Source: Paraphaeosphaeria minitans (lineage: Eukaryota > Ascomycota > Dothideomycetes > Pleosporales > Didymosphaeriaceae). From it: a stretch of 64,000 bases of DNA. Under the pieces are notes generated by a model. That model was given only the letters and a program-made list of their open reading frames with translations, had not been told where the DNA came from and made no database searches. The DNA lies in the NCBI GenBank assembly GCA_015832175.1, contig WJXW01000016.1, forward strand, positions 620,001-684,000, given 5' to 3'. Positions within the stretch are counted from its first letter, which is position 1. Each line of letters starts with the position of its first letter. The position numbers and the translations under genes are program-made. Positions 9,403 to 44,785 of the stretch are shown here, one piece after another.

Positions 9403-11007
9403 ATGCTCTCTCCCGTGTTGGTGATACTGCTGGCTATCGCTGCAGTCTTCGTCAAAGTGCGTCAGACTGACTGGAATGATTCACTGACCGCTGAGTCAAG
9501 TTCATAGAGTGTCATCAGAGGCGTCCGGTCGCCCTTGGCACATATACCAGGCCCATGGCACACACGATACACCAACCTCTCCCTTCGCATCGCCACCATC
9601 AAGGGCCGCAGAATCCACCATGTCGAGAGCCTCCACCAGAAGTACGGACCCATCGTACGCTTATCGCCAACGCAGCTCGATGTTTCTGAGCTGTCTTCCT
9701 TTTCTCAGATTCACCGAATCGGTAGCCATTTCCACAAGTCGTCGTGGTATGAGAGTACGCATAGGGGCAGGAAACAAGGCATCTTCGCCATGCAAGATCC
9801 GGGCCAGCATGCGCAAAGACGACGTCTGTTTGCAAGAGCTTTCAGCTACACCAGCATATCCACGCATTGGGAGGCTGTTATTCGAGACAAAGTTTCTCTA
9901 GCTGTCCAACGCATCAAGGAATCCGCAATCGAAGGCGGCAGGGATCAATCTCTGGCTACAAATGATACCTTAAGCGTGGAGCCCATCAATGGTGCTGATG
10001 TCCTAAAGTGGTGGACGCTAATGGCTACAGACGTCATCGCACACCTATCCTTTGGCGAAAGCTTCCAGATGCTGGAGCTTGGACAGCAGTCTGCGTACAT
10101 CGATGCTCTCCAGAGTGCGAATTTGAGCAGTGTACTACGGACCGAAGCCCCACTGGTATGGCATATTGCATACTGGGTCCCTTTTGGCAAGCTCCACGCC
10201 ATCACACAGGCGGAAAAGGTAGTCTTAGAGTATGGCGCCAAAGCGATCCAAAACATGAGACGAGAAGGTGGAGGACTCAAGAATCTCTTTGGCCAAATGG
10301 AGGCAGCGGCCGAAAAGGATGATGGAGGCATCACGGACGACGAGGTCAAGACCGAGGCGGGCAATCTGATCATAGCGGGTAGCGATACAACTGCAGTGAC
10401 GCTCACGTATCTGGTGTGGGCGGTCCTGAAGCAGCCTGCTCTGCAGAAGGAACTTGAGGCTGAGGTCGCAAGGTTGAGCGACGCCCTCCGTCTGGAGGAG
10501 CTTAATCAAAACATGCCTCTGTTGAACAGTGTCATTGAAGAGACGCTAAGATTATATGGTGCTGCACCGGGTGCCTTGCCAAGGTCTGTACCTAAAGAAG
10601 GTGCAGTATTTGGAGGCTACCAAATTCCCGGAGGAGTCGAGGTTAGCACGCAGGCGCACACCATCCACAGGCATCCAGATCTATGGACTGATCCTTTGAG
10701 GTACGCATTTATCTTTGCAGCCACGAATCTGCTTGCGACTAACCAGATCAGTTTCAACGGCTACCGGTTCCTCGAAAAGTCCACCATGACATCTGCGCAG
10801 AAGACCGCGATGCACCCTTTCGGCGCTGGTTCCAGATCTTGCATCGGGCTGCATCTGGCATGGATGGAGCTGAGGCTAGGAGCAGCCATGTTCTTCAGAG
10901 ATTGTCGAGGTGCACGGCTTGCACCATGCATGACGGACGAGATGATGGAACTCGACAACCGCTTTTTGATTTCGCCCAAGGGTCACTGCTGTTTTATTGT
11001 TTTGTAA
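9403..11007 (+). CDS. Cytochrome P450 monooxygenase (first of a convergent pair)
   Basis: Haem-thiolate monooxygenase, probably ER-anchored. The joined model has three exons and 500 residues. Exon 1 (9403-9456) is an 18-residue hydrophobic anchor (MLSPVLVILLAIAAVFVK). The 51-nt intron 9457-9507 ends in TAG. Exon 2 begins SVIRGVRSPLAHIPGPW, with the Pro-rich hinge. A second in-frame 51-nt intron, 10701-10751, interrupts the PERF-like region (DPLS/FNGYRFLEK). Motifs: I-helix IIAGSDTT, K-helix EETLR, and haem loop HPFGAGSRSCIG with the axial Cys. Reading from TTG at 9535 would lose the anchor. The family is fungal-specific and the substrate cannot be read from sequence. It ends 138 bp from the end of the second P450. 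Confidence 0.9.
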
Positions 11008-11145
11008 AATGGAGACGACTGGAAAACCTGTCTACGGGTGGGACCAAAGAGATTGTCCGAAGCTCTACAGCTTCTAATTTCAAGTACTTTTCGGCACTGT
11101 CTCGAAGTTTGCCGTCTCATCTTTCCATGTCACTTGGACGTACAA

Positions 11146-12824
11146 TCAGTGCAGCGAGCGTCTCCGCAAAGCCACATTGAGAGGACGCTTATCCTTTTCA
11201 GAGATCAGTAGCAATGTGATCGTCTTTCTCAGACCACTTACCCAAAGTATGTACGTGTTTTGCTCCCCCCAGTCCCATCGGTCATTCTCGTCTGCCAATC
11301 GCATGTCGAATGTGAAAAGCAGCCTCGCTAAAGTTACACGCAATTCCGCATAAGCAAGCTTCATTCCAATGCAAACATGCCGACCCGTCTGGAACGGCTG
11401 GAGTGACGAGAAGTTGTCGTCCTCAGACTTCGGATCGAGAAAGCGTTCGGGTAAGAACGAATTTGGATGGTGGAAGTTGCGCTCCTGGCGATTAGCGGAG
11501 TACTGGTTGTAAGCCACGTATGTCTGTGATTTTGTGAGAGTTGTACTGAGGAGCAGCCGTGCATACTCACACCTTCTGGCACCCATCGACCGCAGATTGT
11601 GTCGCCTCCCTTGGGCACCACTCTTGGAACGCCAATGGCGGAAGGGGGTGCAATTCGCAAGCTTTCGTTGATGACGGCATTGAGATAGGGCAGATTCCCC
11701 GTGGAAGCGATCTTAATCTCGCTCTCAGTTGCGTACGCAGACCGAATCTCCTCTGTTACTCGATGCAGCGCACCGCGATTCTGTAGCAAGTGTCTCGTGA
11801 TTGCGCATAAAGCGCTTGCAGTGGTCTCTGCGCCGGCGAATATGATGATGGTCATATTGATCGCCCATTCTCCTTCCGATAGAGCGTTTTTGGAGTCGGC
11901 ATATTTCTTCGCTGGGGTGACCCAATCCGGTCGTTCTATGTTTGAAGACAATCTCTTCTTGACCATAGCTGCACTCATCTCGCGGTGCGCTATTTGTCGC
12001 TGTCGAATGCGTTTCGGGATGACATGGCGTAACAGCTTGTCGAGAGGCTGGTACAGATTGACCGATGCTATGAGGGATAGGCCTTTGCCAAAGTCCTGAG
12101 CAATCTCTACCCAAGGGTGTGCTTTTCCAGTTGAGAGGCAGCCGAAGGATTCTCCAAATGAAAGATCTCCCGAAATGTCGAACATGAGGAAAACGAACCA
12201 CTGGGATAGATCAACGGTCTTGTCTGCCCACCGCTGGCCTGAAATACGAGCTCTGAGCTGGCTTATCAAGCTATCAAGATAACTCTCGATAACGGGAGAC
12301 TGGTCGCGCAAGCTCTTTTCAGAGAATGAGTTGGCAAACACCCGTTTTTGTCGAGCGTGTGCTTCTTCGCTGTATCCCATCAACGAGTGTGGATCATCGG
12401 GAGACATCTTCTTGAACCAGGTGCGGTTGCGCTCAAATGGCTGGTGACCGGGACGATTACCGTAGATGTCTCTCCATGCGGAAGCATTGGCATAGGATAG
12501 CTCATTGGGTGCAACGCGAACAACGGGTCCATACTTGTCATGCAATGTCTTCAGTCGCCGGTGTATGTCACCGCTGTGTATCGCAACAACGTATGGGAAC
12601 CGGTAAGCGGTCCAGAGAAGTGGTCCTGGGTATCGATGGAGAGGGTGGATGAATGCATTGTAGATGCCATATAAGACTCCCAGCTGATGCGGTGAGTATT
12701 GAGTAGGTACAGCTTTGATGCCTGCACTTACTGTTAACAAAGACAACAAGGTGACGCCGGCCAAGAGGATCCCTTGCGATACCACATTCCACCTCGAAAA
12801 CGCATCCAAGATAACGTTGCTCAT
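11146..12824 (-). CDS. Cytochrome P450 monooxygenase (isotrichodermin C-15 hydroxylase-like type)
   Basis: Three exons and 527 residues once introns 12684-12731 (48 nt, GTAAGT) and 11524-11570 (47 nt, GTGAGT/CACAG) are removed. The N-terminus has a membrane helix (GILLAGVTLLSLLT), then YNAFIHPLHRYPGPLLW. Motifs: FAGAETTAS in the I-helix, INESLRIAPP for ExxR, and FLPERFLDP for the PERF region. The haem loop reads PFQTGRHVCIGMKLAYAEL; the usual Arg two residues before the Cys is His, with an Arg just ahead of it, a variant I believe other fungal P450s share. The NPPE-type 'WVPEGTYVAYNQYSANRQ' segment resembles CYP65-like enzymes. Substrate unknown. The convergent pair suggests a two-step oxidation, but no backbone synthase lies in the window beside it. 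Confidence 0.9.
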
Positions 12825-15020
12825 ATTTGTAGGAACATCCGAAAGTACGGCCGACCACAGAAATCACTCAAGGCATTGCTGTTGTTGACAGCGCGTTACC
12901 TACGACAGCGGGTCGCCGCCAAGTCCGAGGTTCGTTGTTCTTGCCCCTCAATGATCTGCTGGCCTTGGAATTTAGCGCAAACGTGAACTCCACGTTCACT
13001 CCCCTTTTCCTTCCGTCTCTACCCCTTAGACAGACACGGGCCGCACACATTGAAACATGTTCACGTCTAAGAGCCGTGTATGACCATGCTTCTGGATACA
13101 GGCCAGACCAGAGCGTCGCAGGCAAGCGGGTGGAGTCTACGAAACACTTGCCTCCTGCTTCGACGGCACATGTCTTCGGGCGGCCATGACGGGTTGCTGT
13201 CGTCGCTGGGCAGGGCAGACATGAACTCGAGACAGTAGTACGGCTCTTCAAAGTATCACGAACGCGCATTCGACCGGCTATGGGCTGTCTCAATAGTCTT
13301 GAAGTCGACGTAAACCCAAGGCAGGATCCGCCTGCAGAGTGCGGCACAAGCAACACCTGCATACCTCCGTTCAAAGTCCAACATACGGGGTGCATGTATG
13401 GTTCTGGTTCCTGTATCAGATGCTGCCGTCACGGCCCTGAAACTACTCGCTAAGGTTTCGACACAAGCTTGAATCCTCCTCTAGGTACGGTAGTCTACAA
13501 GTCCAGGTTTCGAAACACTCCCCGCGCCGTTGCCGCGATATCTAAACGAACCTTGGACTGGATTTTGAGAACGGCGGTCCTGGGCGCAAGGCCCGCCATG
13601 TCTGCGCTGTACACGATGAGTAGTGCGGCCGAGGCGTTTTCAATATTCAATAAATCCCTCGAAATGGCAGGCTATAGCGCTTGGGTTCATTCCCTCAGGC
13701 CCATAGATACACCAGGCCATACATGCAGGCTGTAGCCCGCGAAAAGGCCAATGCTTCCTTCTTCGACCAACGCTGCTAAGAGCCATGTCTAGTTACGGAA
13801 AGCACTGATCCAACATCACGCTGCGCATTCGTTTTGCGACGATCGACGCATCGGATCTTGCAATCAACACGAGACATCTCATCCCATATTCCAGGATGCC
13901 GTCAGTAAGTGAGAGGGTAGACGCCATCATCTGTCGGGTGCTGCAGCCGAGATGGACAAAGGAATGCACCGAAGCAAGCCATCATGTCCGTTAATATCGA
14001 ATATGCAGAGCTAATTATCCCATATTCTGGCTCAAAGCGGGGCATTTGCTATAGCGCCGCACTCGTACTCAGGTTATTTGCTGGCTATTTTCGGCCCCCG
14101 CTGACCGCAAATTGGCCCACGTTGATGTCGGTTGACGGCATGCACGGCGGGTGAATGAGGCCCGGGTTTCTCGACACTTAAAGTTTTTCACCAAACAGGC
14201 ATCGTTTGAGCTTTCGACTGCACTGCAAGGTGATTGATGAAACTCTCAGAAATTCCATACAGTTACCATGCAGGATGCACAGTGATAGTGGTGCTCGAAC
14301 TGCGTACGGGGCTCATAGTCCACCATCAGGTTGGTATTGCCGATTCGCTCGAGGAAAGCCTTACCACGACCGTGCTGCAGAAATGCGGCTCAGATCGCAC
14401 CGTGGTAGAGCGCTGGCGCTTCACCACCCCAGTTCAACCATGCCCCCGATCTCGTAGATTCAACCTATCAGATACGGCCTCGAGCACAAGCATTTTGCCG
14501 CTATGGCCGGTTTAAGAACAAAACGCGAGGCCATCGGTTGGCCCCTGGGGTTCTAATTCCATCCCATGTCTCATCAGTCTAACCATGCAGGTCGCTTCAA
14601 GGATGAGGGTCGCGGCCTGCATGTACAGCGCGCATGGAAGGTGCATGGACTGGGTTGTCTAGTCTACTCCGTGGCCGCCTACCTACTTTTCGGGAAACGG
14701 TGCAGACCGGGAAAGGTTATAAGGAAAGCAATCTCTACATCCAGAAGCACTCGTAGGTACAGGGACACCACTCTTCTAGCTTCGCCCCCGGAGGTTCCAA
14801 TCGCGGCACACATCACCTTGTCCGATACTTTATTGCTTTGAACACACTATATTCGTCTTTGGTATTGCTCACGTCAACTACTATTCCTGTAGCGTCTCAC
14901 TGTTACTGGACGACCTACGCCTCATCACCCCAAAGAAACCACTGAGAAGTTTTCCACGACCTCAGAAGCTTCCCCAGTCGCCTTCGTCTCCGAAACGACA
15001 GCGCAGTTCTACGCATTACG
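12825..15020. other. Long intergenic region (2.2 kb), no convincing gene
   Basis: Divergent promoters of the second P450 and the DUF3455 gene must lie here. Frames of up to 175 residues exist (12868-13395, minus), but they lack motifs, have mixed base composition and overlap other frames equally well. I see no RNA gene. Confidence 0.45.
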
Positions 15021-27674: not shown

Positions 27675-29156
27675 TCACGACTGCGCTGCCGCCTTCGCCG
27701 CCTCCTTCTCCTTCTTCTTGCGCTCGCTCTCCTGTGCCTTCAATAGCTTCTTGAGCTGGTTCTTCGTCATGGGCTTCCCGTCCTCGCCCAACTGTGCGCC
27801 ACCCTCCGCTGCCTCCTCCACGACTTCTTTCTTCTCAACCCTCGGGTTTCCCACCCACTCGAGTTTGCGTGGTCGCATAAACTCATCCAGCACCTCATCC
27901 GTGACCTTTGATCTCGCCTCTTGAAAGGCCTTGACGTATTTCTGCATCAGCGTGATGCACTCCTTCTTCATCTCGCCAGTCAGGATCTCGCCCTTTCGGT
28001 ACCCGTCGGCCAACTTGCGCAACTTTTCATCGTCGTCTTCGAAGTACGCAAGATACTGGTATGGGACATCGATGTCTGGGTTCCCGCCCTTTTCCCTGTG
28101 CAGCGTCTCCGTCTCTTGCCCACCGCTGAATGCATGGCTGTTGATCTTCTTCTTGACCTGGTTCTCGGTATCCGACATGAAGATGGCCGAGTTGGGGTTC
28201 GAAGCGCTCATCTTGCCACCAGCACCCTGCAGAGCGGTCAAGAACTTGGAATGTATCAGAGCCGGTTTGGGCGAAGGCTGTGCCATGCGGGAGCAGTTGT
28301 CGCGCACGAGGCGGAAGTAAGGGTCTTGGTCGATACCGCAGGGAATCAGGCAGGGCATGGCAGCGAGTTTGGCTGAGCGATGGTACGTCTTAATATCGTT
28401 GCCCCAGATGAAGGGGTACGAACTGGCGAAGGCAGCGACGCATTGTTTCGCAGCAAAAGCATTGCTGCCGATGTTGGTAGAGCCGTGGAAACCGAATGCG
28501 CCCCGGACTTGGTTGTTGGTGATGAGCTTCTCAAACTCCGTCGCATTGAGCGAGAAATGGCGGTTGTACCCGCTGGTGAAGAATTCAGAGTCGATGTATA
28601 TGAAAGTCTTCTTCGGGTCGAAGCCGAAAGAAATGATGTCCTTTGCGTTGTCGCGAGAAAACTCGTACACATCGGGCTGTGTGAGCTTCTCCTTGAAGAG
28701 GAACTTCTCGTCGTCAGTCAACATGATGACCAGTGGCACGTCGAAGACTTCTTGTAGCCACTTGGTGAACTCGAAGGGGATCGTGTGGCCAATGTGCATG
28801 GAGTCGCTGGAGGGACCACGTCCAGTGTACAGCAGAAACTCGCCATCCCTCTCGTAAGTGTCCAAAACGAGCTCCAGGTCACGGTGCGAGAAGAAGAGTC
28901 GGCGTCGTAGCCAGCGGTGCGGCTTGTGGCCTGTTACGCGCTCGAAGCGGGCGAGGAGTTCGTCGTCGATCAACTTGGTGGCCCATTTCTGCGAGATGGC
29001 CGCGTAGTCGAACTCGAGGACATTTCCCTGCTCGTCTGTCGCGGCTTGCACATCCCAGGGATTGATTTCTTGCTCCGTCTTCTTTCCCTGCACAGGTTCA
29101 GTCGCCGTCTCGGCGAGGCTGAGGGCGGCGACGGAGGGGGGCTGGGGAGCTGTCAT
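27675..29156 (-). CDS. WRS1: Tryptophanyl-tRNA synthetase, cytosolic
   Basis: Charges tRNA-Trp with tryptophan in the cytosol. The single-exon frame of 493 residues has the length expected of the eukaryotic enzyme. It has the class I signatures: the HIGH-type loop SSDSMHIGHTIPFEF and the KMSKS-type loop GGKMSASNPNSAIF. NIGSNAFAAKQC, CGIDQDPYFRLVRD and the DDEKFLFKE segment match eukaryotic TrpRS. The C-terminal tail is lysine-rich (KKKEKEAAKAAAQS). I see no mitochondrial presequence, so this is the cytosolic form. It is divergent from the PRELI-domain gene with about 500 bp between starts. Confidence 0.96.
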   Translation of the reverse strand: MTAPQPPSVAALSLAETATEPVQGKKTEQEINPWDVQAATDEQGNVLEFDYAAISQKWATKLIDDELLARFERVTGHKPHRWLRRRLFFSHRDLELVLDTYERDGEFLLYTGRGPSSDSMHIGHTIPFEFTKWLQEVFDVPLVIMLTDDEKFLFKEKLTQPDVYEFSRDNAKDIISFGFDPKKTFIYIDSEFFTSGYNRHFSLNATEFEKLITNNQVRGAFGFHGSTNIGSNAFAAKQCVAAFASSYPFIWGNDIKTYHRSAKLAAMPCLIPCGIDQDPYFRLVRDNCSRMAQPSPKPALIHSKFLTALQGAGGKMSASNPNSAIFMSDTENQVKKKINSHAFSGGQETETLHREKGGNPDIDVPYQYLAYFEDDDEKLRKLADGYRKGEILTGEMKKECITLMQKYVKAFQEARSKVTDEVLDEFMRPRKLEWVGNPRVEKKEVVEEAAEGGAQLGEDGKPMTKNQLKKLLKAQESERKKKEKEAAKAAAQS

Positions 29157-29662
29157 GGCGGAGAGAAGGTACAGAGGATGACAGTGAAAGGAGCGAGGGC
29201 GACAGTGAAAGGAGCGAGGACGACAGTGAAAGGAGCGACACGACCCAGGTCAAGTACGGCAACACGAATTTGAAGCACCACCACTGAGTCAAACATCCAA
29301 CCGTGGCAGGAACGACCGAACGGCCGAATGTGTCCCGCACCTGCCCCGCCATGGGTCGGCCATTTCAACCGCCGACATTGCCCTGGCGGGCTAGCCCATT
29401 TGGCGAAATCTCGTGAGCACTGCGCAGCTCTGAGCTCATCGACATCGAACCACGCACACATCCTGTCTCTCCACATGTCCCCGCCCGACATCTAACTTAA
29501 CTGTCCGACCTGCCACCCTGCAATTGGACGCGCATGATCATGCACATTCATCGCACTCACAACACCACGCGTTTCTAGCTTGTTGCTGCGGCAGAGCTCC
29601 GCACCACCTCCCCCTTCTCCACCCACAATAACCTCGACGCCAGACCAAACACCACCGCCAAC
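29157..29662. other. Divergent promoter region WRS1 / PRELI gene
   Basis: 506 bp between two start codons. Just upstream of WRS1 are three tandem copies of a 21-bp unit (29180-29240). No further gene. Confidence 0.55.
29180..29240. repeat. Three tandem copies of a 21-bp unit
   Basis: Unit GACAGTGAAAGGAGCGAGGGC, three copies with small changes at the ends, starting 24 bp upstream of the TrpRS start codon on its 5' side. It would lie in the 5' UTR or core promoter. Confidence 0.93.
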
Positions 29663-34184: not shown

Positions 34185-35271
34185 ATGGAGTCTGAACCAT
34201 CATTTCACTTATTTACCTCTATCCGTTATGACCCTTTGCTTCTGGAATCGGCCGAAAATTCCCTGCCCATCTTGAACTATGTGGCCCCCTCCCCATTCTA
34301 TATGCTCATCTACCACCGCGACCGCATGCTCGAGGCCGCACAGCATTTCGACTTCCATGCTGTGGCCCAAAGGCTCGAACACGGGGAATCACTACATCAA
34401 GAGTTGTTACAGGAAGTAGCGGAATATCTGCATCGAGGAGGACACGATGGGCCACTAAAGGTACGCCGTCAATAATGTCCTAGTAGTTCACACAAACTGA
34501 GACAACCCACAGATGCGCATCCTATTCGACAAAGCCGCCAACATGACCATCGACTTCGCTCCCACGCCCGCAGTCCCCCTCTCAACCCTCTACCCCGCAT
34601 CCTTCGGTCCACCACGCCCAAAACCCACCCGCCATCCCGCAAACCCCCTTTCCCTGCCCTTCCGGCCCTCCCCCCTGACAGGCGGCGCCCTCACCCTCGA
34701 TCCCACCGACACCCTCCCTCCAAACCCACCATCAGACCCTCCCGCACCCCCAGAATACCACCTCCGCCTCGACACCCAGCCCACGCCCACCTCTGCCTTC
34801 ACCCGGCTCAAAACCACCGTAAGAGAACAGTACGACGCGGCCCGCGCCCGCGCGCTCCCCGCCAACCCCGCCGGCGCTCCCTACGCCGAAGTTATCCTGT
34901 ACAACTCCACGCTCGAGCTCACCGAGGGCACGCTGACCACCATCTACGTGTTCCGCGGCGGCCGCTGGGTGACGCCGCCGGTCGGCGTGCCGGCGGGCGA
35001 ATTCACAGCGCAGATGCTGAGAGATGCCGAGGGCGAGAGCGTGGATCTGGATGAGGGCGAGCTGAGGAGGCCGTTTGCGGGGAGGTGGGGGCACAGTGTG
35101 AGGAGTGCGAAGGTGGGGGCCGGAGGGCAGAGGGGTACGTCAAGGAGATGGGCGCTGAAGAAGGGGTTCTGTATGGAGGAGCCGATTAGTGTAGGTACGG
35201 TGGAGGTGGGGGAGGGCTTGTGGATTAGTAGTGGGGTGAGAGGTTTTGCTTTTGGGAGGGTGGTGGCGTAG
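34185..35271 (+). CDS. ABZ2: Aminotransferase class IV-like protein, probable 4-amino-4-deoxychorismate lyase
   Basis: Family IV PLP enzyme; the fungal lyase releases pyruvate from aminodeoxychorismate to give p-aminobenzoate for folate synthesis. Two exons (34185-34460, 34513-35271; 52-nt intron) give 344 residues. The N-terminus FHLFTSIRYDPLLLESAEN and the block MLEAAQHFDF match fungal Abz2-like proteins. The late block EVILYNSTLELTEGTLTTIYVFRGGRWVTPP is the class IV motif that contacts the cofactor. The middle (about residues 110-180) is an unusually Pro-rich stretch. The expected PLP-binding lysine is not obvious to me by eye, so activity is inferred from family only. Confidence 0.75.
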
Positions 35272-35428: not shown

Positions 35429-36217
35429 CTACTTGCCGCCGGTTTCGAGCTCCTTCAGTCGCCGGACGAGCTTCTCTCTCAGGTAGGGGGTGAGGCCGAG
35501 GCTGTTCAATCGTGTCAGTAAGGTCTCAACAAAGTAGCTATGCCGTCTGTTACGCCACGCTGTAGAAGATGGTACTCACATTCCCTCGCGAGTGACAATC
35601 CTGTATGTTCCGCTATCCTGCCAATTCCCGATCAACGACCCGTTCCCGTCAACCTCGACGCTCCCGAAGATGTCTTCGGGCCACGCGATCCTGCCCCAAT
35701 CGGGAGGATTCCGCTCGTCACTGACGTGAATCCAGCCACCCTTGTTGGCACCGCCCATGCCTGCTTGCTGGTTGGCGGCGCCGGCTCCATCACCGCTGCG
35801 CTTGTTGGGTTGTCCAAGGTTGAAGCCACCGGGTGAAGCAAAGGCAGCGGCTTGTTGCTTGACCGAAGGGTCGTTGATGGCATGCGTAGCCAGGACGGAT
35901 TGCAGGATTGGATGGAATTGGCGATTTTCTGTGAACGAATCCGGGGTCGGTGGAACAGACGTGGAAGCTCCCAGCGCCAGTTGGACATTCGGAGGCTCCG
36001 TGGGCAGTAGTGTGAGGAGGGAGCGCGTCGCGTCGAGCGGATGTTCGAAGACGTAGATGTGCGGATTCGATGGAAGCGTCGAGAGGGCTCGCACGCTGAG
36101 TGTAGGCTTACATACGGCCGGGAGGCGCACCGTTCGCACTGCAGCGCGGTAAAGCATTGCGCAGATGGAGTGTCTGTTGGTGAAGTATGCGGCCAGCATT
36201 TTGGAGCGTCGCGCCAT
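35429..36217 (-). CDS. Conserved-looking mitochondrial-type protein of unknown function
   Basis: Two exons give 236 residues: 36217-35580, a 78-nt intron (35502-35579; GTGAGT donor, CTGAC branch, AACAG acceptor), then 35501-35429. Splicing changes the end from EGM-stop to GILGLTPYLREKLVRRLKELETGGK. The N-terminus is Arg-rich and lacks acidic residues (CAMLYRAAVRTVRLPAV, SVRALSTLPSNPHIY), typical of a matrix presequence. A second ATG at 36157 (MLYRAA) could be the start. The middle has a Gly/Asn/Gln-rich linker, then WIHVSDERNPPDWGRIAWPEDIFGSVEVDG. I cannot name the family. Confidence 0.7.
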
Positions 36218-36366
36218 TCGTCAATGACGTTCGAGACGCCGACAACGCTTGCCCAAATCACCACTAGCGTAAACCCCACCAAAGAAGTCTGTACATTGTG
36301 AATCCTACCTGCTTCGTGCTACCACATCTTTTCAGATTGCGTCTTATATTACAGCATCAGTATAAA

Positions 36367-38229
36367 ATGTCTGCCGATGCGACTGGGCGGGGTCCCGTGG
36401 AGAAAAACACAGCCGAGTCGTCACAAAGTAGACGTAAGGCCGATGATGTTGAGGAGCAAAACGTTGACCGAGAATCGGAGGTAGACATTGATCGCATCGA
36501 AAAGGTGTATAGGTATGTAGAACGCTGCTTCTGGTTATACGATGCCTGACAAGAAGCAGCAAACTCGATCGACGGATATTGCCAGGTACCACCAGTCTTC
36601 CAACCCAAGCCCTGCCATCTGAAACCTAACATCGCTCAGCCTTTTGGATCCTCTACTTCATGTGCTCTGCCATCCGCTCCAATGTTGGCCTGGCGCAGAC
36701 TATGAATATCGCCCAAGGACACGATCTTGCTTCAGAGCTCAACCTGAGCCCCAAGCAAGTGTCTACTGGTCTGGCCTTGTTCTATGTCTGCTACGTTATT
36801 TTCGATATGCCCAGCAACTTGCTCATGTCCAAGTTGAGTCCGCATGTATGGATGAGTAGAATTGTCACTGGAGTGGGCATCATCGGTATCGGTTTGACTG
36901 GTATGAAAGCTGCGTGGAGTTTCTAGTGCGCTTTCTCTCTCCTCTCTACAACATGGACTGCCGCTGACCCCAATCTAGCTTGCTCCGACTATTGCTTGGC
37001 ATAGTCATTGCAGGCATGTGGCCTGGCATGTCGTACTACCTCACGCTCTTCTACCCGCCTTCAAGGACTGGTAAGCGAATTGGCCGCTACTTCACTGCAT
37101 CCCAAGTTTCTGCTGCCGTCGTTGGTCTTGTTTCTGCTGGCTTCCAGGAGATGGACGGCTTGGGCGGCCTCGTAGGGTTCCAATGGATGTTCCTTCTCTA
37201 TGGTATCGTGGGGACTCTTGTGGGCATCTCTCTTCTATGGTGGCTTCCGGATCGGCCTTTAGCGCCTGGCGAGGTTCGCGATAAATCGTCCTGGCGCAAA
37301 TACATCCCGGACAGCGCACCTGCGCTGACAGGCCAGGATGCTCGGATCCACTATGAAGACCTGACTCGCGTGTACCGTCGTAAGGCGTGGACGATGAAGG
37401 ACCTTTGGTATGTTGTCATCGACTGGCGTTTGTGGCCATTGGTCGTTATGTACTTCGGTGTCGTTGGTGTCGGTATCGGAACCCAGGCGTATGCTTCGGT
37501 TATCATCCGTGGCATCAACCCTGATCTCTCTGGTATCGACCTGTCGCTATTGACCGCTCCTATCTGGATCGTAAGTTCCTTTCACCTGTTGACTAGGTTT
37601 GTACGACGACTAACACCACCCAGATGGATCTCATTGCTATTCTCATCTTCACCCCACTATCAGACAGATTCCACCACCACCGCGCTGCTTTTTTCTCCTT
37701 TGCAGTCCTCATCCAGATTGGCGGCCTCCTCATGACCACCTTCGGAGGAGGCGCAAAATCTTGGACTCGCTACGGCGGCCTCCTTCTCGTACGTATCTCA
37801 CCCAGCACTTGCTTACAGCAGTCCACTAACCACTACGATCAGGTCGGCTTCGGCCTGGGTCCCACAGTGCCCATCTGTATGACCTGGACGAACGAAATCT
37901 TTCAGCCCCGCCACGGCGAAGTGGGTGTCGCTGCCGCATCCGCACTCGTCTCCGGACTGGGTAACCTCGGCTCCATCCTCACTACCTACGCGTTGTACAC
38001 GGGATGGCCCGAGGATGCGATCGGCCCGCACAAGTACCGCAAGAGTAACCTCGTCATGATTGGGATTCTTTGCGGGAGCCTGCTCGCTGCTGGGATGATG
38101 GTGGTGTTGTTAAGAGTGTTTGGCGACGGCATGTCCAGAGATGGTAACGGTGGCGAGTTTGTAGATGGGGCCGCGCGCAGGGAGATCCAGCAGAGGGGAT
38201 TTAGGAAGATCTTGCCTTTCAAACGGTAA
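36367..38229 (+). CDS. MFS transporter, anion:cation symporter (allantoate/nicotinate permease-like)
   Basis: Plasma-membrane secondary transporter with about 12 helices, 533 residues from six exons. Introns: 36513-36559, 36586-36639, 36926-36978, 37571-37623 and 37789-37842 (47-54 nt). Exon 2 is only 26 nt and encodes the conserved KLDRRILP, giving VYRKLDRRILPAFWILYF. Splicing at 36926 dissolves an apparent TAG (TA/G). Family motifs: NIAQGHDLASELNLSPKQVSTGLALFYVCYVIFDMPSNLLMSKLSP, LLRLLLGIVIAGMWPGMSYYLTLFYP, WWLPDRP. The substrate class is small carboxylates, amides or vitamins, judged from family only. It lies about 1 kb from the first UstY gene, so it may belong to the RiPP cluster as an exporter or be a housekeeping boundary gene. 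Confidence 0.9.
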
Positions 38230-39267
38230 GAGAAACGCACGACACATTGTAGAGGCTGTCGAGAGTCCTGCACTGCACAGGACATCCGATTTACGAGGGG
38301 ACAGATAGGTGGTGTGGGGGCAGTTGCCCGCATTGAAAACATCACTCATTGGTTTCAAGTCACGGCATACATCACACTGTGGTGATCTAGAACGCTTTCA
38401 GGACTTATGTTACTACAACAGCGCCATTTCTTGTTGGGAATAGTGCGTAAAATATGATTGGCCATGCACGCGGTCGTATCAACTACGATCGTGAAAGCCA
38501 ACTATAATACCCTTCGAAGACGCCGCGTGTTGTGATTCTTTAGGTAAGACAGGCGTTGTTTTAGCTTTATGTTGCGTACGGGCGCAGGTGCAAAAGAGAA
38601 CCCTATCACACGTACGCGATAGATAATCTACAGTATATACCATGGACCTTGTTTCCACACTTTAAGAATCACATCTTATTTACCCTTAGGAAGCTAATTT
38701 GTCGACACTGGACAGTCACATGGATAGAAGAGGCTATGTCTGAGTTTCCAGATTTGATGGTAAAGTCTATGCATCCGAATTTGTATCTCTTATGGTATCG
38801 AAGCAACTAAGAAAACGTCTTAATCCACAAGGAGTCTTCAGACGACCCAAAGTATAGGACAGTTCTTTTCCACTACCACTATAAGAATTTTCGCAGCGCT
38901 ATTCGTCGGTTTCCTGTCCGTAGCATACAAAATCCTCATCACATAGGGTATGTTATCAGTACAACGAAGAATGAGTTCTGCAGATCCCTTACAGCTACAG
39001 TGATGGATTCTAGAAGTGTACAGCGCGGCTCACCGACCATCCGCGATGCGACTTTTGTTTAAGAGAACGTCAGCCTCTACACTCAGTAGGCTTATTATTG
39101 GACCGAATATTATAAGATTATGAACAGTTTCTTGAGCATGGATTCAGCCACCTCAAGATCGCAGTGCACTTGTTTCAAAGGCAACTCCAGATCCAGGATC
39201 AAGTGGAGCTCAATCAATGGAGCATAACGTACGTGACAGCGTCTAATGTATGTGATCATTATCTTCC
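38230..39267. other. AT-richer convergent intergenic region at the cluster's left side
   Basis: About 1.04 kb without a frame of interest. Composition is visibly more AT-rich than in the MFS gene, which may mark the change from core to accessory DNA. Confidence 0.5.
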
Positions 39268-40258
39268 TCATGCGCCATGATTATTGGGGTGAAACTCGGG
39301 CACGATGATAGCACCTGGCGGCGGCTTGTCGGCAGCTCTGAAGAATCCATCGCTATCCACCCCGTTCTCCACAGACCACTCCCTCAACGCATCAAAATCT
39401 CGACAAACCTTTTTGTTGTTAAAGTCCGGCTGCGGCATCCGATGCCCCTCGACCCAATTAAAAGTAACCATATCCACGCTGCCCGTACACCTCAATGCCT
39501 GCGCAAGTACGTCAATACAGTGATTGATATGTGCCTCGTGCAACTCCGACCCAGGACTCGGTCCTTCATCAGCCTCGTGATAGTGCTTGTATGAGATCTC
39601 CCGGCGGAGCTTATCCAGGCAGTGTAAGTGGTGGAAAACGTCCATGCCTGCGATGTACGCGTCTGAGCCGAGATTCAGTTCGGGAGGTGCCTTCACGGCC
39701 ACCGACGGGTCTTTACCGAGCGCGATGACTTCGGCACCGTTGATTATGATGGGAGCGATGTGGCTCCCGATTGAATCCCATGCTGCATCTGCTTCGGTCC
39801 CTGTACGGGCGCGCCAAATTGACGGAGGTTCTGTATTCCAGAATGTGCCGTTCGTAACTCGCGTGAGCTTCGGGATGCTGAAGCGATCGAATACTGGGGC
39901 TAGAGTCGAGGTCAGTCGCTAAATCAGGTAAATAAGTGAGGACGGGCTCACAATAAAACGATGTAGCTCTCCAATAGTCCTGGTCAGAAAGAGAACCTTT
40001 TCTTGACAACGATAGTATCACTATCGAGGTCAAGAACAAGAACGCATTCAGAATTGTCACGGAAACCAAGATCCTAGTGGACCAGGACCAGGAACTTCTC
40101 CAAGATGCTTTTCGAACACTTTCGCTGCCCTCGCCCAGCAGAAGAAAATTCTCCGTATCGTCGTCCCCATCGCGCAACGACCCTTCCGACGAACGAGAAT
40201 GTTTGTCTAGAGTAATGTTCGAATGTTTAAAGCTCGGTCGATCACTTCGTGATTCCAT
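39268..40258 (-). CDS. UstYa-family (DUF3328) oxidase-like protein 1
   Basis: Membrane-anchored protein of the family that makes oxidative ring closures on ribosomal peptides (UstYa/UstYb for ustiloxin). Two exons (40258-39952, 39899-39268; 52-nt intron) give 312 residues. A polar N-terminus precedes one membrane helix (STRILVSVTILNAFLFLTSIVI). The domain has both hallmark motifs: FHHLHCLDKLR and, about 30 residues on, HINHCIDVL (HxxHC twice), presumed metal ligands. The middle has the usual PPSIWRARTGTEADAAWDSI (the 'W..L/I' signature). Splicing gives SFYS-PVFDRFS; without it the frame ends early. The neighbouring gene on the same strand is the repeat precursor, about 0.6 kb upstream of its start. 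Confidence 0.92.
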
Positions 40259-40867
40259 CTCCGAAAAAACAGCACAACGCTATCACAATGCTCGATTTGA
40301 CCTCAAACTAGACTATGAGGTTTGGATTTTATCTCTCAGGCGAAGAAAATTGACAAGAAGTTACGTCTGCGAAAGAAACCTTAACTGGCGGGGCACAAGG
40401 TGATGATTTTGTCGGGTACGCAATCCTTCGCACCTGGGCAGAGTATCACCGATACATGTGCAGATCGCCCCTACAATCCCTCATCGCCAGGAGCACAGCC
40501 AAGGCTACGATCCCAAAGCTAAAAGGTGTGATATAAGACCGGAAAACTTGTCATAGACAAGATCGAAATAGCCCGGCTACTAGAGTATGCGTGTTGATCC
40601 TTGGACTTTGCCAAAAGAGGAAGGTGTGAGGCTTCCAGCGAGCGTCAGAGTTGCCCCGCATGGAAGGATCGATAACAGATGTCACACAAGAATTAGTATG
40701 TAGTTCCAATTAGCACGACAACAGTAGTCACATAGGCCCATTGAATATCAGTGACAAAGCCATACAGCTACACGTGTCTATCAAATTGGTGCTCCTTCGA
40801 TCCACCACCTTGTTCAGACAAGACTCCAGGTGAATCCCCAGATTTCACGTTCTATTGAATATCTTTT
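40259..40867. other. Intergenic region between precursor and UstY 1
   Basis: 609 bp between two minus-strand genes: 3' UTR of the precursor and promoter of UstY 1. No gene seen. Confidence 0.55.
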
Positions 40868-41448
40868 CTACTCAGCCCGCTTGTCAACGTAGGTAGTGTC
40901 ATACCACTGAGGGTCTGCTTTACGCTTCTTCTCTTCCTCTGCACGCTTGTCAACATAGGTGATGTCGTACCATTGAGGATCTGCCTTGCGTTTCTTCTCT
41001 TCTTCCGCACGCTTGTCCACGTAAGTGATATCATACCACTGGCGCTTCTTCTCCTCCTCAGATCGCTTGTCGACGTAGGTAGTGTCGTACCATTGAGGGA
41101 TGGCCTTACGCTTCTCCTCGTCGGTGCGCTTGTCAACGTAGGTGATGTCGTACCACTGAGGGTCGGCCTTGCGTTTCTTTTCCTCCTCAGCCCGCTTGTC
41201 GACATAAGTGATGTCTGTTAACGTAGTTAGTATTCAATTTGTACAAACGTAATGCTTGAAAGGGGGTACTTACCGTACCATTGAGGGTCGGCCTTACGCT
41301 TCTCCTCTTCGGTACGCTTGTCAACGTAGGTGATATCGTACCACTGGGGGTCCGCATCACGGTTCTGGACTTCTTTGGACTGAACTGGAGCCGCGCTGGC
41401 AAAGCCGGCAGTCAGCCCGATGATGGCGGATACGGTAGAGACACGCAT
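40868..41448 (-). CDS. Repeat RiPP precursor peptide, UstA-like (Kex2-processed)
   Basis: Secreted precursor of a putative dikaritin-type cyclic peptide, 173 residues from two exons (41448-41274, 41214-40868; 59-nt intron, GTAAGT...CTAAC...ACAG). A signal peptide (MRVSTVSAIIGLTAGFASA) is followed by a short propeptide and seven repeats. The usual unit is 21-22 residues: an acidic/basic spacer (A/T-EEEKKRKADPQ) and the core WYDITYVDKR. Five cores read YDITYV and two (units 4 and 7) YDTTYV. Unit 5 has a shortened spacer. Each core ends in Lys-Arg and each spacer carries another Lys-Arg, both Kex2 sites. Tyr-x-Ile has the same spacing as in ustiloxin (YxIG). Adjacent UstY genes on both sides make the assignment strong. 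Alternative: a linear Kex2-processed repeat protein without ring closure. The cyclised form is inferred, not seen. Confidence 0.9.
40877..41358 (-). repeat. Seven core-peptide repeats within the RiPP precursor
   Basis: Imperfect 63-66-bp direct repeats (one of 54 bp), each encoding a PQWYD-I/T-TYVDKR core. Repeats differ mainly at synonymous sites while the amino acids are kept, which points to selection on the peptide rather than recent copying. An intron (41215-41273) interrupts the second copy after the first base of the core Asp codon. Confidence 0.92.
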
Positions 41449-42014
41449 ATTGAATATCGGACGATATGTAGAGTGAACGACAAGAAGATGACGATTGAGA
41501 GAAGCTCGATATATACATGTCCAAAATGGCTCGCGGTCTGAATCCTGTCACGAAAGCATTGCGTATGGTAACATTTTTTATTGGCTGTGGTGTAGTCGTC
41601 CTACATAGGAGTAACTTGATCCTGAAGGAAGCGGGGTGGTAAGCCAAGTTGACGGCGACCCACCAAGTAGCTCTTATGGAGGCCTTGCAAGGGTGTACAA
41701 TCTCACCTTCCTCATCTATCAGGCTCTGACATCTTTGTCTGGTTGGCAGCTGTCTCTCGCGCACACTTGTTGCCTCATTTCCCAGCCGCACTGAGATACG
41801 TGTCCAGAGCTCCCGTTGTCTCTTCCATGCTCTCACCTTACCTTCGGTAGATGCATTGGGATCATCCCAAATTTTCCCGATACGGTAATCGCCCCTTGAC
41901 ACGGTCCGAGTTGGCTAGCCAATTGTTCGGTCCAACATTCAAAATTACAATGTGCGAGAACTCTTTTATTTATTGCAGTTGACTTTCGAGCTATCCGTTT
42001 CACAGTTTCGAACC
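41449..42014. promoter_or_regulatory. Shared divergent promoter of precursor and UstY 2
   Basis: 566 bp between the start codons of the precursor (minus) and UstY 2 (plus). TATA-like ATATATACATG sits at about 41509-41519, roughly 65 bp upstream of the precursor start. A shared regulatory region would coordinate substrate and enzyme. A 180-residue frame (41357-41902, minus) overlaps the precursor start and lacks motifs. Confidence 0.5.
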
Positions 42015-43059
42015 ATGCCAGGCCAAAAGTATAGCCAGCTTCGAAGCGAAGAAGATGGCGAAGAGCTCATGTCACACGGACACCTCGACAACAAAGGCTG
42101 GAGCGGCCCATTGAACATTCGATGTCTGGCAATCAATGCGATGTTGTTCACATCTGGAGTGTTTGTCGGAATACTGCTTAGCCATGCGCGCCCGCGGGGC
42201 GCTAGCGACCAACTCACTCAGTATTCTATGGTGCCTTGTATGTTTGAGTCTTTCCCCATCAGTCACTTTGAAATATTCCATGTTAAGGCTGACCTAGACC
42301 ACTAATAGCACCGGCATTTGAGGCCGTATCTTCGCAGCCATTGATGCTGACACATCACGAACTTGAGGGCCATGGCCACTTGAGCCCATACCAAGGATTT
42401 CCAACTGAAGAGACGACAGAACGATGGATGGAGCTCATGAATGGTAAGTAAATTCATATCTTCTTCACAATCTATCGCTAATCGAGTGATCTATCCAGGA
42501 TACTCCATACGCGTTCCGTCAACGTCTCTAGCTGCTTTAGATCTTGAAAGCATCCCCCTCAATGATGCCTCTGGCGACGTGTGGGTCTCCATGAACGTTT
42601 ACCACCACCTCCACTGTTTGGATTCTATCAGACATCAGATAGCAGGAGTACGCTGCTCGAACCCCCACGATTCGGCAGCAAACCATACGGGCCACTATGA
42701 TGTGGAAGAAGAGCACTATTTCCCGCCGCATATAGATCACTGCATTGAAACTCTTCGAAAGAGACTCATTTGCCAGCCTGACCTCGGTGTCAGGGCTATT
42801 GCTTGGAATCCCGACAAGCCTGGCGTTGCATTCGCAAACAACACCGTAGATTCGGCGTGCGTCAATTGGGATGCTGTTCAAGATTGGACGAAAAAGCATT
42901 CCTTTTCAGAGGAAGAAAAGCTGATTACTACTCCCGAAGGTGAGAACATGTCCTCATGCTAACAGCATTTCGTTACTGCCTCAGGGGGTGCTCACTAACG
43001 TTTATGTAGGGCATACCTACATTGGCCCAAGAACACCACCTGCTCGGTGCGGAGAATAA
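42015..43059 (+). CDS. UstYa-family (DUF3328) oxidase-like protein 2
   Basis: Second candidate ring-closing enzyme, 282 residues from four exons. Introns: 42238-42308 (71 nt), 42444-42498 (55 nt) and 42940-43009 (70 nt). A short cytosolic tail (MPGQKYSQLRSEEDGEEL) leads to one membrane helix (LAINAMLFTSGVFVGILLS). The luminal domain has YQGFPTEETTERWMELMNGY, then YHHLHCLDSIRHQ and HIDHCIETLRKRL, the two HxxHC motifs about 50 residues apart. Exon 4 ends the protein as GHTYIGPRTPPARCGE. I chose ATG 42015; an upstream in-frame GTG does not matter. The longer gap between the motifs than in UstY 1 argues they are not recent duplicates and may act at different positions of the peptide. Confidence 0.92.
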
Positions 43060-43563
43060 TCTGGGTATTGGCGCGACTGTATGATTGTACGATTTTACGA
43101 TTTTCGGATAATAAATCTTGGGACTGGGGTTAGACGAGATCTATGATCAATTTAGGCCTAGACCGAAGGAAATTGTGTGAAAAGAATGCTGATCAGCAAC
43201 CGCAAGCTTGTCCGATGCTTGGGTAGGTACCTTGCCACCTGAATTCTCAAGCTCCATCAACCTTCGCGCGACAAGTAACAGTATCTCTCGTACGACGCTT
43301 AGTATCATTTCCAAGATCTTGTCAAGTGCTTGGCGTCTTTCCCCCGCATCTGACCGAAGGATTGTCATCCATGAAGGCTAAAGAATTAGGCTAGTCTTGT
43401 CAGACCTGTGGGACTGCAGCCAGCCCGTGCTACACTGTTGACTCCTCCATGCCCCCTTCGGCGGGTTCATTGATCATACACCGCTCTCTTTGTCCGTCTT
43501 CGATTGCCCGACATTGGATCACGCGACTGTCACCATGCGATAGTTCCACTCAATCGAGTCACC
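43060..43563. other. Intergenic region between UstY 2 and RTA1-like gene
   Basis: 504 bp between two plus-strand genes, with UstY 2 3' UTR and the RTA1-like promoter. Nothing else seen. Confidence 0.5.
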
Positions 43564-44785
43564 ATGACTTCATACGGTCATTCACTGGTCTCGACCCGTT
43601 CAGGATCAGAAGAGCCATCAACATCACGCAGTTGCCCTATTACGACTGTGAAGCCGGATGCCAATGGTTGGGTGCCTCCTGGGTCTTGCGGATACATTTC
43701 TCGGCCCTACTACCCTTCATTCGTTTCAGCCTTGGTTTTTTGCGCCGCTGCGGTCTTGGTGCTGCTAGGGTTTGCATTGCCGATATTCCGTTCGGTCTCT
43801 CGCCGTGGTCACCAGCCGCGAAATGGAAGATGGCCGTCATGGAAATTCTGCCTCTTACTGCCTTGGATTGGGGCTCTTATCGCGACGTGTCTCTTGGCAG
43901 CCTACGTCTTGCGTGCATTTGGAACAAGATATCAGCAAGTGCTGGAGTTCGTGGCTATCTCTGACACCTTTGTCTTGATCTGTCCGATATGTGAGTTCTT
44001 CTCTTCGGCTACTCTCGCTCGCCTCGGCTTCTGTCAAATCCTTCTCTTTCTACCTGTGTGCTTACTCACTTTTTTACGCAGTGATATTCTTACTTGACTG
44101 CACTGTCCTTACAAGAATAGTGACAGCTTCCTGCCAAGATGAGAAGATTGTCGGTGTCACCGGACAGGTTCTCTCACGGGCACTCCTCCTTACTATCCCT
44201 TTACTTGCAATCGAACAACTCACTGCCAGTGTGTTTATCGCTCCGAAGCACCGGGTATCCTCTTCAGGCAGTGGCTCTAGCACAGCAATGCTCGGGCTCA
44301 AACTTTACCTTGTCGGCATTGGCGTTCAAGAAGTTCTCGTGGTGTACGTGTCGATCATAGCAGTATCACTGTTCAAGAAGCTGGGAGCCAACGAGGCCGC
44401 TGATCTGAGAGCAAAAATGACTGATGGTCTAAGCCAGCCGTCGAACAGATGGCGCTCGACTATGTACTCTTTGATCTTCAGCCTTGCAGCCATAGGAATC
44501 AGGATAGCATATCGCCTGATTGAACTCTCTGGAATATTCACGGGATATCTTCTGGTACTGATGCAAAACGAGATTTTTTTCTACACACTTGAATGTCTGC
44601 CAGTTTTAGCTGCGTTGGGGGTTTGGACAGTTGTAGGATTCGAGGATATGATAGACAACCTTGACACCATGCCTGTTGGTACACATATCTACCATGAGCT
44701 TAGCGGAGTGCCCGAAGAGGGTCACAGTGTGCCACTGGAGAGAGAATCGTCTGAAGATGACGATCGCCTACCTAAATGTATTTAA
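43564..44785 (+). CDS. RTA1-like integral membrane protein
   Basis: Seven-helix fungal membrane protein of the RTA1/Rsb1 family, members of which are linked to lipid translocation and tolerance of toxic compounds. Two exons (43564-43990, 44082-44785; 91-nt intron) give 376 residues. The N-terminus has the family pattern CPITTVKPDANGWVPPGSCGYISRPYYPS. Late motifs IRIAYRLIELSGIFTGYLLVLMQNEIFFYTLECLPVL carry the Arg/Tyr/Glu pattern of the RTA1 domain. The ATG at 43564 was preferred over an upstream TTG. The tail is acidic. In cluster context it may help tolerance or export of the peptide product, an inference from position only. Confidence 0.82.

Follow-up and report, generated by a model that had tools for sequence, protein, structure and literature searches.

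A probable dikaritin-type peptide locus of Paraphaeosphaeria minitans with a repeat precursor, paired UstYa genes and a Ste13-like spacer

Introduction

Among the clusters for fungal ribosomally synthesized and post-translationally modified peptides (RiPPs), that of ustiloxin contains two UstYa-family (DUF3328) proteins and that of phomopsin more (PMC6514808, PMC7329392). According to the passages of a 2019 survey that deal with them, ustiloxin, phomopsin and epichloecyclin precursors lack the X-Ala/X-Pro (XA/XP) dipeptides that form the STE13 signature (PMC6339444). When a mushroom Kex2-processed repeat protein (KEP) was expressed in yeast, XA/XP dipeptides were removed and pyro-Gln ends were formed (PMC9769878). 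The combination of a Ste13 signature with DUF3328 has a precedent, since, of 76 KEPs with homology to putative basidiomycete Ste13-type pheromones, 17 have DUF3328 neighbours (PMC7329392). The conserved Pezizomycotina motif DADAATXYV[A/V]D, listed in PMC6339444, may be a comparable case. The present work concerns a 64,000-nt stretch of Paraphaeosphaeria minitans DNA, referred to as the window (G000:C16:620001-684000; the genome has 47.45 Mb in 30 contigs), in which inspection of the sequence alone had suggested that five adjacent genes form a new dikaritin-type RiPP cluster (the original prediction).

The analysis indicates that this is very probably a conserved dikaritin-type RiPP locus (of the ust-RiPS/KEP kind), for which a trimming and oxidation route can be proposed. 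The assignment, which agrees with the original prediction, is well supported because the precursor is a Kex2 repeat protein, two UstYa genes each encode both HxxHC motifs, and relatives of these genes share contigs in other fungi.

Results

The genes lie in the order major facilitator superfamily (MFS) transporter, UstY1, precursor, UstY2 and RTA1-like protein, with the precursor between both UstY genes. The features, in window coordinates, are as follows:

36367-38229, plus strand: MFS_1 transporter, 533 aa, five introns; Pfam MFS_1, 110.5 bits
40258-39268, minus strand: UstY1 (UstYa/DUF3328), 312 aa; exons 40258-39952 and 39899-39268
41448-40868, minus strand: precursor gene (KEP/UstA-like), 173 aa; exons 41448-41274 and 41214-40868
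41392-41448, minus strand: putative signal peptide of the precursor, residues 1-19, ending between ...FASA and AP; hydropathy only
41273-41215, minus strand: phase-1 intron of the precursor, interrupting core 2 between Tyr and Asp
42015-43059, plus strand: UstY2 (UstYa/DUF3328), 282 aa; exons 42015-42237, 42309-42443, 42499-42939 and 43010-43059
43564-44785, plus strand: RTA1-like membrane protein, 376 aa; exons 43564-43990 and 44082-44785

Open frames and usable splice sites were found in all five genes. The introns were positioned by hand, and an identical database protein (P. minitans PMIN06_007616, 100% identity over the full 312 aa) confirms the UstY1 model only. Four of the five genes matched a Pfam family above its cut-off (33.4 bits for MFS_1; 24 for RTA1, which scored 54.8 bits); the precursor was the exception, with nothing but a sub-threshold match to Abhydrolase_2. 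The two UstYa-family genes predicted to flank the precursor were borne out by the hidden Markov model search, UstY1 and UstY2 scoring 178.6 and 116.1 bits against PF11807 (DUF3328; cut-off 25). Given how densely the other UstYa loci are spread over the 47.45-Mb genome (18 of them, a lower bound obtained by our own collapse of 27 search rows), the probability of two or more UstYa genes in 10 kb is ~7e-6; the presence of two such genes together is therefore not attributable to chance.

The hydrophobic N-terminus of the precursor is followed by seven cores, of which five read WYDITYV and two WYDTTYV; Lys-Arg (KR) sites number 13. The cores lie in tandem, bounded by Kex2 sites, the first being preceded by a single Arg, and the repeat unit QWYDxTYVDKR varies at one residue only (Ile or Thr). 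Among the 21 pairs of core units, which are not independent of each other, the proportion of synonymous differences (pS) was 0.75 versus 0.018 for non-synonymous ones (pN). These values indicate that the peptide was kept rather than the DNA, and strong purifying selection acts on the cores; the repeat is not due to chance. The predicted repeats and Kex2 sites were thus recovered. For the predicted signal peptide the evidence is hydropathy only (mean 1.56 for residues 3-19, against -1.05 for the best 15-mer beyond residue 20, with an A-x-A type site). No second copy of the precursor was found in the genome (a search at E <= 1 returned its two exons). When the window was scanned for repeat frames having at least three dibasic sites, the precursor was recovered together with a single further short row (29123-29284). 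At 2102-2903, on the minus strand, there are tandem units (SVEDVVLQSRMWFFSRGCGS-like) that are open in more than one frame and probably represent a DNA minisatellite.

At least ten related precursor proteins were detected (E <= 1, among 7987 candidates scored); Kalmusia sp. IMI 367209 and Periconia macrospinosa are the named sources among the matches listed. For a fair count of core residues, sites were picked on [WFV]YD alone in 11 precursors, that of the window included. Tyr occupied core position 6 in all 33 sites, and DK positions 8-9 in 32 of them. The core table used for position 1 and for the spacers described below was selected with a pattern already demanding Y, D, Y, [VI] and DK, and is circular in these respects; in it, position 1 was Trp or Phe, and Val once. 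The intron spot of the relatives reads through as WYG or FYG. A core-internal intron was seen at the same codon in P0001, P0003-P0005 and P0009. Because P0009 reads as if the intron were present in two consecutive repeats, repeat units may duplicate together with their intron.

The linkage of precursor and UstY genes was found again in other fungi. Contig sharing was deduced from an identical size of the longest contig, which implies the same contig, adjacency not being seen. On this basis, a precursor and a UstY2 relative share a contig of 6733 nt (P0001 and P0063), one of 39246 nt (P0002 and P0057) and, in Periconia macrospinosa, one of 53507 nt (P0007 and P0052). Relatives of UstY1 and UstY2 lie on one 3687698-nt contig in Periconia digitata (P0013 and P0049) and on one 625023-nt contig in Bimuria (P0019 and P0048). 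Of the seven precursor matches with no UstY2 contig match, six come from contigs shorter than 7 kb, and the seventh, from Kalmusia, lies on one of 1.53 Mb. The UstY1 search gave 37 matches, many from Colletotrichum, and the UstY2 search 25, the close named ones being from Bimuria, Periconia, Paraphoma and a Phaeosphaeriaceae species.

In the window precursor, pairs of X-Ala/X-Pro dipeptides (DADP, KADP four times, and KAIP) followed by Gln stand ahead of six of the seven cores. This is a trimming signature of the Ste13 (alpha-pheromone) type, which the original prediction had not mentioned. In the fifth repeat, KKR directly abuts QWYD and the spacer is empty. All seven window sites fit this dipeptide grammar, counting the one whose spacer is empty and the one that follows a lone Arg, as do 29 of the 40 core sites over the 11 precursors, one of them with an empty spacer. 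Ala or Pro was found at 21 of 22 even but only 1 of 22 odd positions in the 11 distinct four-residue spacers, which are homologous and therefore yield no true probability; in one relative the order is swapped (GPEA). Even among homologous spacers, the pattern looks like a requirement for XA/XP dipeptides rather than mere common ancestry. The genome contains one kexin-type locus and two DPPIV-type loci. Visual inspection of the three other KEP-like/UstYa loci described below, out of 18 further UstYa regions, revealed no Ste13-like spacer after KR. As a marker of the pheromone gene, PYG-x-P-[IV]-G was tried as a DNA pattern; its one genome match, a single copy in a 45-aa frame, was attributed to chance. 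This pattern did not reveal the true pheromone gene, and the genome yielded no positive control for the Ste13 signature.

Such a spacer would also be expected if the product were a linear pheromone- or hormone-like peptide matured by Kex2, Kex1 and Ste13, the neighbouring UstY genes acting on another substrate. KEPs with the XA/XP signature are considered good peptide-hormone candidates, the signature being absent from the three RiPP precursors named above (PMC6339444, in its passages on these peptides). The explanation appears improbable given that UstYa genes lie on both sides of the precursor, that a UstY2 relative is on the precursor's contig in three other sources and that all 33 sites retain Tyr6. 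Further, the figures given in PMC7329392 indicate no DUF3328 neighbours for 98.6% of 216 putative fungal pheromones and for 100% of 227 putative yeast alpha-factors. The core also differs from the Pleosporales pheromone core PYG[L/M]P[I/V]G (PMC6339444). Neither that core nor a pheromone Pfam match was present in the precursor.

UstY1 has a strongly hydrophobic segment near residue 63 and the motifs HHLHC at 192 and HINHC at 226; in UstY2 the segment is near residue 37 and the motifs are HHLHC at 155 and HIDHC at 197. Both proteins therefore contain HxxHC(x)nHxxHC, and its H, H and C were invariant in an alignment of 16 of the 37 UstY1 matches and in one of UstY2 with 11 of its 25 matches. In CctR, a copper-dependent homodimer of the DUF3328 family, this motif forms a binuclear copper centre (PMC12435403). 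Since the motifs are kept, the two proteins share 25% identity over 244 aa and CctR offers a precedent, UstY1 and UstY2 look like active oxidases of separate subfamilies. A sequence search of the PDB with UstY1 gave no match. The AlphaFold model of UstY1 was too weak for a fold search (mean predicted local distance difference test score 65.8, predicted template modelling score 0.51); in it, the two HxxHC motifs lie on two predicted helices (189-201 and 221-239), as described for CctR.

The low mutual identity also means that the two proteins may catalyse different reactions, and DUF3328 members have been implicated in halogenation, hydroxylation and isomerization besides macrocyclization (PMC12435403). 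A dikaritin-type locus whose UstY proteins introduce other changes (hydroxylation, desaturation or chlorination) and no ring is nonetheless considered unlikely, as the core has two Tyr residues at an asperipin-like spacing (WYDITY versus FYYTGY; PMC6514808).

Some UstY1 relatives carry the name DOPA-dioxygenase, and in P0042 (Colletotrichum scovillei) the gene model, if no more than that, joins a UstY1-like domain to one of the DOPA-dioxygenase family (PF08883). DOPA-dioxygenase was dropped as a candidate UstY partner, the PF08883 family being on a different contig in the P. minitans genome.

Of the claim that the five genes form one pathway, the part concerning the precursor and the UstY pair stood, on the evidence of the repeats, Pfam and linkage elsewhere; the MFS and RTA1-like genes are tied to the locus by position alone. 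The left flank consists of a frame for a class IV aminotransferase (34501-35271), another that has no Pfam family (35579-36220) and, further out, TPR, PRELI, tRNA synthetase and chitin synthase genes. On the right, no Pfam family above cut-off was matched by ten of the larger frames between 48.5 and 57.6 kb or by three between 57.9 and 63.6 kb. The window contains no tyrosinase, the only PF00264 stretch of the contig being ~195 kb past it, and no S41 peptidase (PF03572) stretch was found in the window or listed on the contig. Two convergent cytochrome P450 frames lie on opposite strands at 9508-12863, ~0.4 kb apart.

The presence of two P450 genes in the window invites the idea of a larger cluster that would include them (~9.5-12.9 kb) or the unannotated genes right of 45 kb. 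This seems very improbable: tRNA synthetase, PRELI, TPR, chitin synthase and SNF1-type kinase domain genes separate the P450s from the locus, the 13 right-hand frames compared with Pfam (48.5-63.6 kb) have no family above cut-off, and neither a tyrosinase nor an S41 stretch is present in the window.

The core strings WYDITYV, WYDITY, FYDVSY, WYDLTY, WYDISY, WYDTTY and FYDISY were absent from the searched literature, a search that covered texts and left supplements aside (e.g. the KEP tables of PMC7329392 and PMC6339444), and the passages on the topic in a lichen survey (PMC12048977) name no such core. The literature search returned no paper linking P. minitans with a RiPP; Paraphaeosphaeria occurs together with DUF3328 in PMC7329392 only, where the passages seen mention the genus once, for the di-histidine type G-8. 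The original prediction had overrated novelty. DUF3328 neighbours are catalogued for 1758 of 7878 fungal KEPs (PMC7329392), Venturia inaequalis by itself has nine reported dikaritin clusters (PMC9632046), and the present genome contains three KEP-like/UstYa loci besides this one. The locus is real and conserved and its precursor unusual; its overall kind is known and, with those 1758 catalogued neighbourhoods, common.

The three further loci came from a KEP scan in which four of seven rows (three in L023 and one in L027) were discarded by eye as simple or non-Kex2 repeats. A KEP-like gene near a UstYa gene at L015:5900-6810 (G000:C1, ~82.3-83.2 kb) has five ...QAFYNAAYYGL repeats, again with aromatic-Tyr-x-x-x-Tyr; immediately before it, a signal-like stretch lies in a different frame, which points to an intron. 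Another, at L024:6500-7181 (G000:C1, ~271.0-271.7 kb), has a signal-like start and four TEF[AS]PWYRATNILP[AV]SDDK repeats. HHKGRK repeats near a UstYa gene at L018:2398-2715, minus strand (G000:C13, ~427.6-427.9 kb), may correspond to the di-histidine KEP type G-8 listed for Paraphaeosphaeria in PMC7329392.

Discussion

The following route is proposed. The precursor would enter the secretory pathway, where Kex2 would cleave after KR and Kex1 strip the KR. A Ste13-type dipeptidyl aminopeptidase could then remove KA-DP (or DA-DP, KA-IP) and expose Gln; for this trimming step taken alone, we judge the chances to be about even. The exposed Gln would probably close to pyroglutamate (pGlu), giving (pGlu)WYDITYV(D). 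UstY1 and UstY2, as membrane-anchored copper-type oxidases, would carry out the oxidation of the core in the Golgi; the likeliest outcome is a link between the conserved Tyr2 and Tyr6, by a Tyr-O to C-beta bond as in asperipin, or with Trp1 involved. A Tyr ether macrocycle is the first guess because the core has the aromatic-Tyr-x-x-x-Tyr spacing of asperipin-2a. The product would be exported, possibly with the aid of the MFS protein, and the RTA1-like protein might, more doubtfully, protect the producer.

Several observations weigh against this interpretation. As regards the locus, the closest database matches of the precursor (59%) and UstY2 (76%) leave both models with no identical protein to confirm them, and RTA1 is a large family in this genome (26 matched stretches). 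A precursor-UstY2 contig match was obtained for only three of the ten precursor matches listed, the UstY2 search gave no Kalmusia match in spite of the 1.53 Mb precursor contig there, and a common contig of 0.6-3.7 Mb is no proof of adjacency. UstY1 relatives occur in Colletotrichum, yet the precursor search (7987 candidates scored) found no such precursor in that genus. As regards processing, 11 of the 40 core sites violate the dipeptide grammar (eight KSDP in P0003-P0005 and three in P0007, from P. macrospinosa). KR directly precedes only 27 of the 40. The other 13 have one Arg alone in front of them (NR in eight cases, always at the first core, and PR, TR or AR in five cases in P0001), and a lone Arg does not make a classical Kex2 site. 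The grammar fits 17 of 27 sites after KR and 12 of 13 after single Arg, and single-Arg sites supply much of the spacer variety. The core C-terminus is ambiguous, several relatives having DKAKR, DKVKR or DKLKR after the core. Finally, the ring is uncertain because UstYa proteins also perform other oxidations.

A more far-reaching reading, which we put forward tentatively and at somewhat less than even chances, is that an ascomycete peptide is trimmed by the pheromone route (Kex2, Kex1 and a Ste13-type enzyme) and also cross-linked by the UstY pair, giving a pGlu-capped cyclic peptide that is possibly a signal rather than a toxin. It is rated lower because 13 of the 40 core sites follow a single Arg. 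If it were true, there would be no clean divide between a Ste13 signature as the mark of a linear hormone and UstY as that of a cyclic toxin. The locus supplies a testable trimming candidate, a Ste13-type dipeptidyl aminopeptidase acting on the alternating XA/XP spacer, with the spacer-less fifth repeat as a natural built-in control. P. minitans and Coniothyrium minitans are taken here to be synonyms. Under the latter name, this mycoparasite has been studied for biological control (PMC7026392, PMC12428990), and the product would be an undescribed peptide in it; the three further KEP-like/UstYa loci suggest more such peptides. For ustiloxin, a 2019 review states that the proteases responsible for trimming the core ends had yet to be identified (PMC6514808).

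When compared with known systems, the composition of the locus is nearer to asperipin than to ustiloxin, because the window contains neither a tyrosinase nor an S41 peptidase stretch. The asperipin-2a cluster (aprA/aprY/aprT/aprR) likewise combines a UstYa-family oxidase and a transporter gene in a small cluster lacking a tyrosinase, and its core FYYTGY has aromatic-Tyr-x-x-x-Tyr in common with WYDITY (PMC6514808). It differs in having one UstY protein and Tyr at core position 3, whereas the present locus has two UstY proteins, Asp3 and a Ste13-like spacer. With ustiloxin B and phomopsin the locus shares Kex2 repeats and multiple UstYa proteins, and the signal peptide of those precursors would have a counterpart in the putative one seen here by hydropathy (PMC6514808, PMC7329392). 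Their cores, YAIG/YVIG or YVIP, are different, and a tyrosinase takes part in their cyclization (PMC6514808); moreover, their precursors are reported, in the passages concerned, to lack the Ste13 signature that is present here (PMC6339444). Ascomycete alpha-pheromone precursors resemble the P. minitans precursor in having KR followed by XA/XP dipeptides and a repeated peptide (PMC6339444), but alpha-pheromones are unmodified and almost always lack DUF3328 neighbours, in contrast to the UstYa pair found here (PMC6339444, PMC7329392). The KEPs homologous to putative basidiomycete Ste13-type pheromones, 17 of 76 with a DUF3328 gene nearby (PMC7329392), are alike in combining Ste13-type relatives with such a neighbour, and are described there for the basidiomycete type, whereas the present locus is from an ascomycete.

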